Positions 39,840 through 42,123 of a stretch of 42,123 nucleotides of DNA are shown in pieces (within the stretch, counting starts at the first letter, position 1; each line of letters starts with the position of its first letter). Location of the stretch: contig SCUU01000114.1 in NCBI GenBank assembly GCA_004297065.1, forward strand, positions 1 to 42,123, written 5' to 3'. The notes under the pieces were generated by a model. That model was not told the DNA's origin. It searched no databases and was given only the letters and a program-made list of their open reading frames with translations. A program made the position numbers and the translations under genes. The DNA is from Gallionellaceae bacterium (GTDB taxonomy: Bacteria; Pseudomonadota; Gammaproteobacteria; Burkholderiales; Gallionellaceae).

Positions 39840-39867
39840 TTAACACATCCTTAAACGATTCTTGCGC

Positions 39868-39933
39868 AGGGTGGGCACGTTTTTGTGCCCACCCTGATGG
39901 TCGCAACGCGTGGGCACAAAAACGTGCCCACCC
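39868..39933. repeat. Pair of GGGTGGGCAC palindromic repeats
   Basis: agggtgggcacgtttttgtgcccaccct and gtgggcacaaaaacgtgcccaccc; same family at 40411-40471 and 40896-40965. Confidence 0.85.
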
Positions 39934-39952
39934 TGCCGGGTTGCGTCGATTT

Positions 39953-40397: not shown

Positions 40398-40494
40398 ACA
40401 GTTTCATCGTTAGCCCACGCGGTTGATTCAACATGACGTTACCGCGTGGGCACAGAAGTGTGCCCACCCTACCCGGCTGGGCACTACTAAAAAT

Positions 40495-40895: not shown

Positions 40896-40982
40896 GTAGG
40901 GTGGGCACGTTGTGCCCACCATCTGTTCAATTGCCGCGTGGGCACAAAATCGTGCTCACCCTACTGGGCTACGCGAGCCAGG

Positions 40983-41975
40983 TCAAAAGGGGATGTCGTC
41001 ATCAATGCTATTGCTTTTGCTCAATTCTCTCCGCTCAATCTTTGCCCATGAATCATTCCAGCTAGCCGGGCTTATTGGTTTAAGTTGCCCGTCAGTGGTA
41101 AATAAATTCTTTTTTATCGACAAAATTTGAATTTCTTTTTTTGTTTTCCCTGAAACATCTCTAACCCATTCCATATATTCATGGTCATCCCATTCGTCAG
41201 CAGGAATTGCTGAATACGCTTTCGCATACTCAAGCCAATCGTTAAGTTCTTTTAGATTCGTAAAATACACTCTGTATTTATTATTTATTAATGTCTTTAT
41301 CGCATCAAATATAGGATGATTGCTAAACAGTATTTCTTCAACCGCTGTATTTCCCTTTGTTTTTTCGTCAGTTAAAAACTTAACAAGTTGATCTACCGTT
41401 TGCAAACTTCTCTGTAATTCTTGAGTTAGCGAGGTTTTAACCTTATTTGAATCTTCAACAAGCAATCTTTGAAAAAGTCCTGCTAACTGCTCTCGCAAAA
41501 TTGTTGTTAAATCTGTTCCGGTTTCAAAAGAAAATATTGGATTGCCCTTAGGCAATGCATAAATTTCCTCTAAAAAAGAATAAACACGCGGATCATTAAC
41601 CGCAGTAAATCTAACACCCTTAACATCTTTGTTCGCTTGATAGTATTTAAATTCAGATAGAACACTTGATTCGACAAAAATGTAGACTTGCTTACCAAGA
41701 TCATAGGCTGTTTTCAATTCACGCTGGCTTATCGAATATTCCGAATCTGTTGCAGCACTGCCAAACTTTCCTCCAATTACTGAAATCAAAATATCGCAAA
41801 AATCTATCTCTCGATATGCATAAACCTCTGGCTTTTCTTCTCTTCCATAGGAAATATGGCCTTGTTCGTGTCGTACAGGCTCGTAACCAAATGAAGTAAT
41901 AAAGCGGTCTAAATCCTCTCGAATAACTTTCAAGTCGAAATAGGTTGAGCTTACGAATATTCTAGGTCTTGCCAT
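40983..41975 (-). CDS. DUF4062-domain protein with SSB-tip-like C-terminus (DDDIPF)
   Basis: MARPRIFVSSTYFDLKVIREDLDRFITSFGYEPVRHEQGHISYGREEKPEVYAYREIDFCDILISVIGGKFG...SIDDDIPF*; AT-rich relative to flanks. Confidence 0.85.
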   Translation of the reverse strand: MARPRIFVSSTYFDLKVIREDLDRFITSFGYEPVRHEQGHISYGREEKPEVYAYREIDFCDILISVIGGKFGSAATDSEYSISQRELKTAYDLGKQVYIFVESSVLSEFKYYQANKDVKGVRFTAVNDPRVYSFLEEIYALPKGNPIFSFETGTDLTTILREQLAGLFQRLLVEDSNKVKTSLTQELQRSLQTVDQLVKFLTDEKTKGNTAVEEILFSNHPIFDAIKTLINNKYRVYFTNLKELNDWLEYAKAYSAIPADEWDDHEYMEWVRDVSGKTKKEIQILSIKKNLFTTDGQLKPISPASWNDSWAKIERRELSKSNSIDDDIPF

Positions 41976-42010: not shown

Positions 42011-42123
42011 TCAAGCACCAAGTGCAAATAACGCAGCGTGATGCTGCCTAAAGTCAAAAGCGTCTGGCATAAACAACTCGACCGGACATTTGAAACCGAG
42101 TGACTTGCGTGGACGGGTGTTCA
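42011..42123 (-). mobile_element. C-terminal end of an IS30-like transposase, truncated by window edge
   Basis: Minus strand reads NTRPRKSLGFKCPVELFMPDAFDFRQHHAALFALGA*; NxRPRKxLGFKxP is typical of IS30-family C-termini. Confidence 0.75.

Follow-up and report, generated by a model that had tools for sequence, protein, structure and literature searches.

The analyzed stretch of DNA (the window) is one entire contig, SCUU01000114.1, 42,123 nucleotides long, of the 3.1-Mb genome of a Gallionellaceae bacterium (assembly GCA_004297065.1). Close to its right end, on the minus strand, lies a gene for a DUF4062 protein of 330 amino acids (aa), the C-terminus of which (...SKSNSIDDDIPF, followed by the stop codon; last residues SNSIDDDIPF) resembles the acidic tip of the single-stranded DNA-binding protein SSB (SSB-Ct). 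Both features had been named in the original prediction, made from the sequence alone, and both were confirmed: the DDDIPF end by translation of positions 40983-41975 and the domain by a match to Pfam family PF13271 (DUF4062; residues 5-90, E=4e-16, 59.3 bits against a cut-off of 24.7). DUF4062 was the sole Pfam match in the 330-aa protein, with neither an OB fold nor the SSB family PF00436 detected. With bacterial SSB (PF00436) the protein shares a variable linker followed by an acidic-(I/L/V)PF-COOH tip, but it lacks the OB fold and any domain binding single-stranded DNA (ssDNA). An SSB paralog was rejected for want of the OB fold, and the earlier suggestion that the protein mimics SSB holds for the tip, not for the rest of the molecule.

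Relatives were gathered from genomes and viral contigs and the alignment was right-anchored at the stop codon. The family set comprised 20 sequences including the window protein, with homologs 38-78% identical and derived from two phyla and temperate phages. The prediction hinged on homologs retaining the tip, and they did: the terminal residue was Phe in 20/20 and the residue before it Pro in 18/20, whereas Asp or Glu occupied position -4 in 19/20, -5 in 17/20, and -6 in 15/20. The information content reached 4.6, 3.8, 1.9, 3.1, 2.9, and 2.5 bits at positions -1 to -6, compared with about 0.4-1.5 bits at positions -8 to -24. The distance between the last conserved Trp (W306) and the C-terminus varied from 14 to 47 residues across the family and the linker was unconserved. 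The tail of SSB itself is built in this way, with a constant tip following a variable linker (PMC10164576). The nearest ortholog, 78% identical, comes from a Gallionellaceae metagenome-assembled genome. Its codons 325-330 differ from those of the window gene by at least four base changes, four codons being changed silently and one from D to E, while the codons directly before the tip (319-324) carry amino-acid changes in five of six. These data demonstrate purifying selection on the DDDIPF tip.

None of the 522 unrelated background open reading frames on the fetched loci ended in PF. DDDIPF directly before a stop codon was found at two sites in the genome of the window, SSB and the DUF4062 gene, and the reversed-pattern control gave no matches. 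The exact DDDIPF-stop was present in 40 of 60 related genomes, at most about once per genome. Among the 29 such loci that were read, 27 encoded a recognisable SSB, another was a reading frame cut off by the contig end whose tail resembled that of SSB, and the last encoded a protein kinase; the DUF4062 gene of the window is an additional non-SSB site beyond these. A C-terminus arisen by chance was rejected on the background count, the own-genome sites, the reversed control, the conservation, and the silent codon changes. As a side observation, the kinase (377 aa, Ser/Thr type, PF00069 at E=9e-32), encoded in a genome of the same family (G092; L155:1501-2634, minus strand, also L166:8056-9189), ends with FANFDDDIPF. 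It is a single gene amid housekeeping genes and a second non-SSB carrier of the perfect SSB tip.

A bioRxiv preprint of May 2026 (PMC13174449) identifies DUF4062 domains as TIR-like NADases and reports that bacterial DUF4062 proteins from defence islands, named Swarozyc, protect E. coli against phages. The Swarozyc protein KpSwz (PDB 10wc, 11cq, 11cv) becomes active when its winged-helix auxiliary domain causes it to cluster on the phage portal, and a DUF4062 relative depletes NAD+ upon infection. The profile of the window clade searched against PDB matched KpSwz over residues 3-104 (E=9e-8), the significant match ending at about residue 104. Glu86, invariant in the family set, aligned with an Ala of the solved KpSwz chain, consistent with the E97A mutant. 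The N-terminal domain of the AlphaFold2 model matched the TIR domains of RPS4, RPP1, TIR-STING, and SARM1 with probability up to 1.00; the full-length model was of moderate confidence (predicted template modelling score, pTM, 0.47). The earlier description of the protein as TIR-like and suspected of defence has thus gained support from the preprint, the conserved Glu, and the modelled fold. The C-terminal domain was compact (pTM and predicted local distance difference test, pLDDT, of the domain modelled alone in Table 1) and had no match in PDB at E<=0.001. The tail was predicted to be disordered and not packed on the protein body.

The window protein and KpSwz have in common the N-terminal TIR-like DUF4062 domain, the catalytic Glu, the stalk helix, the single-gene organization, and a similar length (330 aa versus 326 aa in the solved chain). 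Sequence similarity between the two is limited to the first ~100 residues. The auxiliary domain of KpSwz is a winged helix that reads the portal, whereas that of the window protein is unrelated to it and has no fold match, and the preprint describes no SSB-like tip. Since the match is confined to the N-terminal domain and the C-terminal domain is another one, the protein is predicted to be an effector of the DUF4062 family whose auxiliary domain differs from that of KpSwz. Its modelled architecture is not that of a KpSwz-type Swarozyc; by analogy it plausibly works like one. A PADLOC scan of the protein, with a profile library that predates Swarozyc, gave no match to a catalogued defence system.

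Table 1. Features of the DUF4062 locus (positions in the window).
Feature	Position	Strand	Remarks
Whole coding sequence, DUF4062 protein with SSB-Ct-like tip	40983..41975	-	ATG start, 330 aa; homologs share the start MA(R/K)PR
DUF4062 TIR-like, predicted NADase domain core, residues 5-90 (fold to ~residue 150)	41706..41963	-	Pfam; model versus PDB TIR domains
Predicted catalytic Glu86 codon, aligned with KpSwz E97	41718..41720	-	Invariant in 20/20 family members
Long helix (stalk), residues 153-203	41367..41519	-	AlphaFold2 secondary structure
C-terminal auxiliary domain, residues 206-318	41022..41360	-	pLDDT 85, pTM 0.74; fold relative not recognisable
Disordered tail, residues 319-330	40986..41021	-	pLDDT < 50 for 320-330; linker varies among homologs
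SSB-Ct-like tip DDDIPF, residues 325-330	40986..41003	-	Information content by position; silent codon changes in ortholog
One of four palindromic intergenic repeat copies	40938..40962	.	20 bp past the DUF4062 stop codon
Putative IS30-type transposase C-terminal remnant, directly upstream, up to contig end	42011..42123	-	By-eye reading

A tree was built from the N-terminal 200 residues, so that the tip lay outside the data. One clade, starred on the tree, united 20 members with a tip or a tip-like end and L045, which carries a different C-terminal part. A second group contained longer proteins ending with SSDDIPF (L023), LPDDVPF (L024), and DIDDLPF (L055), and a third tip-bearing group was represented by L074, placed among KpSwz-like proteins. 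The fewest tip changes on the tree were four, of which the starred branches force three, with gains and losses counted alike. On this tree the tip-bearing DUF4062 proteins fall into three or more separate groups, and the two other lineages further bear out the tip seen in homologs. The alternative that the tip is neutral, and that a defence NADase senses phage through its auxiliary domain alone, might draw on KpSwz, which reads the portal in this way (PMC13174449), and on the tipless L045. We find it barely credible, as it is contradicted by the conservation, the silent codon changes, the recurrence in separate lineages, and the lack of PF ends in the background.

The GC content, ~55% in the surroundings, drops to 33-41% across the DUF4062 gene. 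Hence, the AT-rich character ascribed to the gene was borne out, as were the flanking repeats: copies of a palindromic intergenic repeat of 25-39 nt (GTGGGCAC...GTGCCCAC) lie behind the gene at 39866-39936, 40446-40470, and 40938-40962. In all, the palindrome (AGGGTGGGCAC..GTGCCCACCCT) is present in four copies within 1.1 kb; an Rfam scan of the flank gave no match. The IS30-like remnant also noted in the prediction fared less clearly. By eye, 36 codons at 42014-42121, on the same strand as the DUF4062 gene (NTRPRKSLGFKCPVELF...), resemble the C-terminus of an IS30-type transposase, but Pfam returned no match on so short a piece. In the genome of the nearest ortholog the gene occupies another site, where an outer-membrane efflux protein is encoded upstream of it and a hydroxyacylglutathione-hydrolase-like gene adjoins it, and no IS30-like element is present at this locus.

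Several relatives are single genes within temperate phages, including P2-like prophages. In the P2-like phages of L041 and L039, genes for tail completion and baseplate assembly enclose the DUF4062 gene, and in L038 it is flanked by tail-completion and baseplate-wedge genes in a P2-like tail region, a setting to which the neighbours of L044 correspond by sequence. In L017 it is inserted between the terminase and portal genes. In the second lineage, L068:5030-7851 and L069:2588-5453 share a cassette of a 405-411 aa DUF4062 protein with an SSB-like tip, an AAA ATPase, and a ~137-aa protein. The ATPase matches the PADLOC candidate PDC-M29A, distantly related to AriA/GajA; in L068 the ~137-aa protein is PDC-M29B and the cassette is located inside a type I restriction-modification operon. 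In L043 a gene 4 kb away from that for DUF4062, at L043:10134-10940, was noted as a candidate TIR-TM defence gene (PADLOC E=1e-66). With such prophage and restriction-modification neighbourhoods the homologs resemble cargo defence genes, and the low GC of an apparently acquired gene together with these settings lends weight to the defence part of the prediction. The tip clade is rare, being found in about 1% or less of the genomes sampled. Neither plasmid records nor E. coli yielded a full-length member, the searches of plasmids, phage records, and E. coli genomes for close relatives yielding distant, partial, or no matches, and a class-wide sample of 243 genomes contained no tip-clade genome besides the window's own. 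A role outside defence, as a metabolic or regulatory enzyme akin to nucleoside 2-deoxyribosyltransferases (NDT) and recruited by the tip to replication sites, could be proposed from the NDT structures among the weaker fold matches of the model and from the kinship of DUF4062 to NDT noted in PMC13174449. We regard it as very unlikely in view of the conserved Glu of the NADase site, the NAD+ depletion by a DUF4062 relative on infection (PMC13174449), and the homologs in prophages and defence islands.

In eight carrier genomes SSB ends with DDDIPF, EDDIPF, ADDIPF, PDDIPF, NGDIPF, or LDDEIPF. The host SSB ending SLQPDDIPF is paired with the DUF4062 tip SLLPDDVPF, and in a Planctomycete both SSB (SNGDIPF) and the DUF4062 tip (LNEIPF) have few acidic residues. 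The DUF4062 tips were closer to the SSB tip of their own host than to those of other hosts (exact permutation P=4e-4, 8 pairs; P=1.6e-3 after removal of one of a same-genus genome pair) in a test that was exploratory, being devised after the first match had been seen and applied to a small set of related hosts. That the tip tracks the host SSB is a lead, not proof. Another of these pairs is that of genome G529, whose KpSwz-like protein (L074:706-1764, minus strand) ends with SRKLDDEIPF where the host SSB ends with SRDLDDEIPF, nine of the last ten residues being the same. The resemblance to the local SSB would be expected if the partners were host proteins. The tip might then do no more than place a sensor on SSB-interacting proteins at replication forks, the trigger being something else, e.g., a phage taking over the fork, an event that the C-terminal domain would sense, and prophage-borne members would sit beside the host replication machinery they use. 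We keep such a localisation or guard role as a possible, though doubtful, explanation. Its C-terminal sensor has no recognised ligand, and the evidence does not set it apart from a model in which the tip serves as bait.

The tail is kept in distant relatives, so that it probably serves the enzyme for attaching to, or baiting, replication-associated proteins. We lean slightly towards a single-protein abortive-infection effector, a DUF4062 NADase whose SSB-tip mimic docks on SSB-binding proteins of the host or the phage; binding, defence, and NADase activity are what we infer for the window protein. The N-terminal domain would be an NAD+-hydrolysing executioner, kept off until clustered, as shown for KpSwz. 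The helical stalk and the clade-specific C-terminal domain would bear the short disordered linker with its acidic run and [I/L/V]PF-COOH end. SSB-Ct peptides place their terminal Phe in a pocket that has a basic lip and ridge; without this Phe binding is lost, and the Pro-to-Ser change (ssb-113) weakens it (PMC10164576). Most likely, the tip of the window protein would engage the Phe pocket and basic ridge on binding partners of host SSB. These may be host fork and repair proteins or, more attractively, phage replication or recombination proteins that need host SSB, and the C-terminal domain of phage lambda Red-beta does bind host SSB (PMC8303780). By analogy with KpSwz on the portal, a multimeric partner would gather the NADase domains and lead to NAD+ depletion; phage annealases, which form rings and filaments, are candidates for such partners.

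Several points weigh against this effector model. The text of PMC13174449 does not mention SSB, so the KpSwz trigger cannot be carried over to the window clade. L045 belongs to the clade with another C-terminal domain and without the tip, and two homologs have the degenerate ends NLF and AIF. The affinity of the tip for its known partners is micromolar (3-4 uM for RecG; PMC10164576), hence avidity must be assumed. Finally, the contig ends ~150 bp before the start codon, which limits the visible neighbourhood. The tip could instead be regulatory and hold the NADase off, by binding either SSB's OB domain or a basic pocket of its own protein, until ssDNA or phage SSB releases it. In SSB the tip is a ligand that can be exchanged, and several other defence systems are reported to be triggered by phage SSB or ssDNA; the tail of the full-length model, at pLDDT < 50, was not seen to dock on the body, and we judge this arrangement improbable.

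A broader version of the effector model, which we put forward tentatively and with more doubt than confidence, is that immune effectors have repeatedly captured the SSB tip as bait, that SSB-binding phage proteins cluster the NADase, and that the tip therefore tracks the local SSB. If so, the sole way out for a phage would be to stop binding host SSB, and the FDDDIPF-ending kinase of the related genome would be another user of the bait. Immune effectors would then exploit an interaction hub of the host that is difficult for phages to bypass, and the trigger of DUF4062 NADases without a portal-reading domain could be tested by single-residue changes (deletion of F330; P329S). The DUF4062 family and its defence role have been known since 2026, and the SSB-Ct tip on such an effector appears to be the new part; our literature search found no SSB-Ct tip on a defence protein. 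AbpAB, Retron-Eco8, and Hna are likewise defence systems that read phage DNA replication or SSB biology, but in the literature searched none was found to bear the tip itself. The Deinococcus protein DdrB, also devoid of an OB fold, was once credited with an SSB-like C-terminal motif, but it is an ssDNA-annealing protein and not an NADase, and its motif is dispensable for radioresistance (PMC3834827).

Other DDDIPF-ending proteins without a Pfam match were noted in genomes with at least two DDDIPF-stop sites (L170:2661-3347, L174:271-882, L177:2869-3240, L179:702-1097, and L175:2250-3005). They are perhaps phage or plasmid ssDNA-binding proteins, and in four of the five a Pro/Gln/Asn-rich linker precedes the tip.
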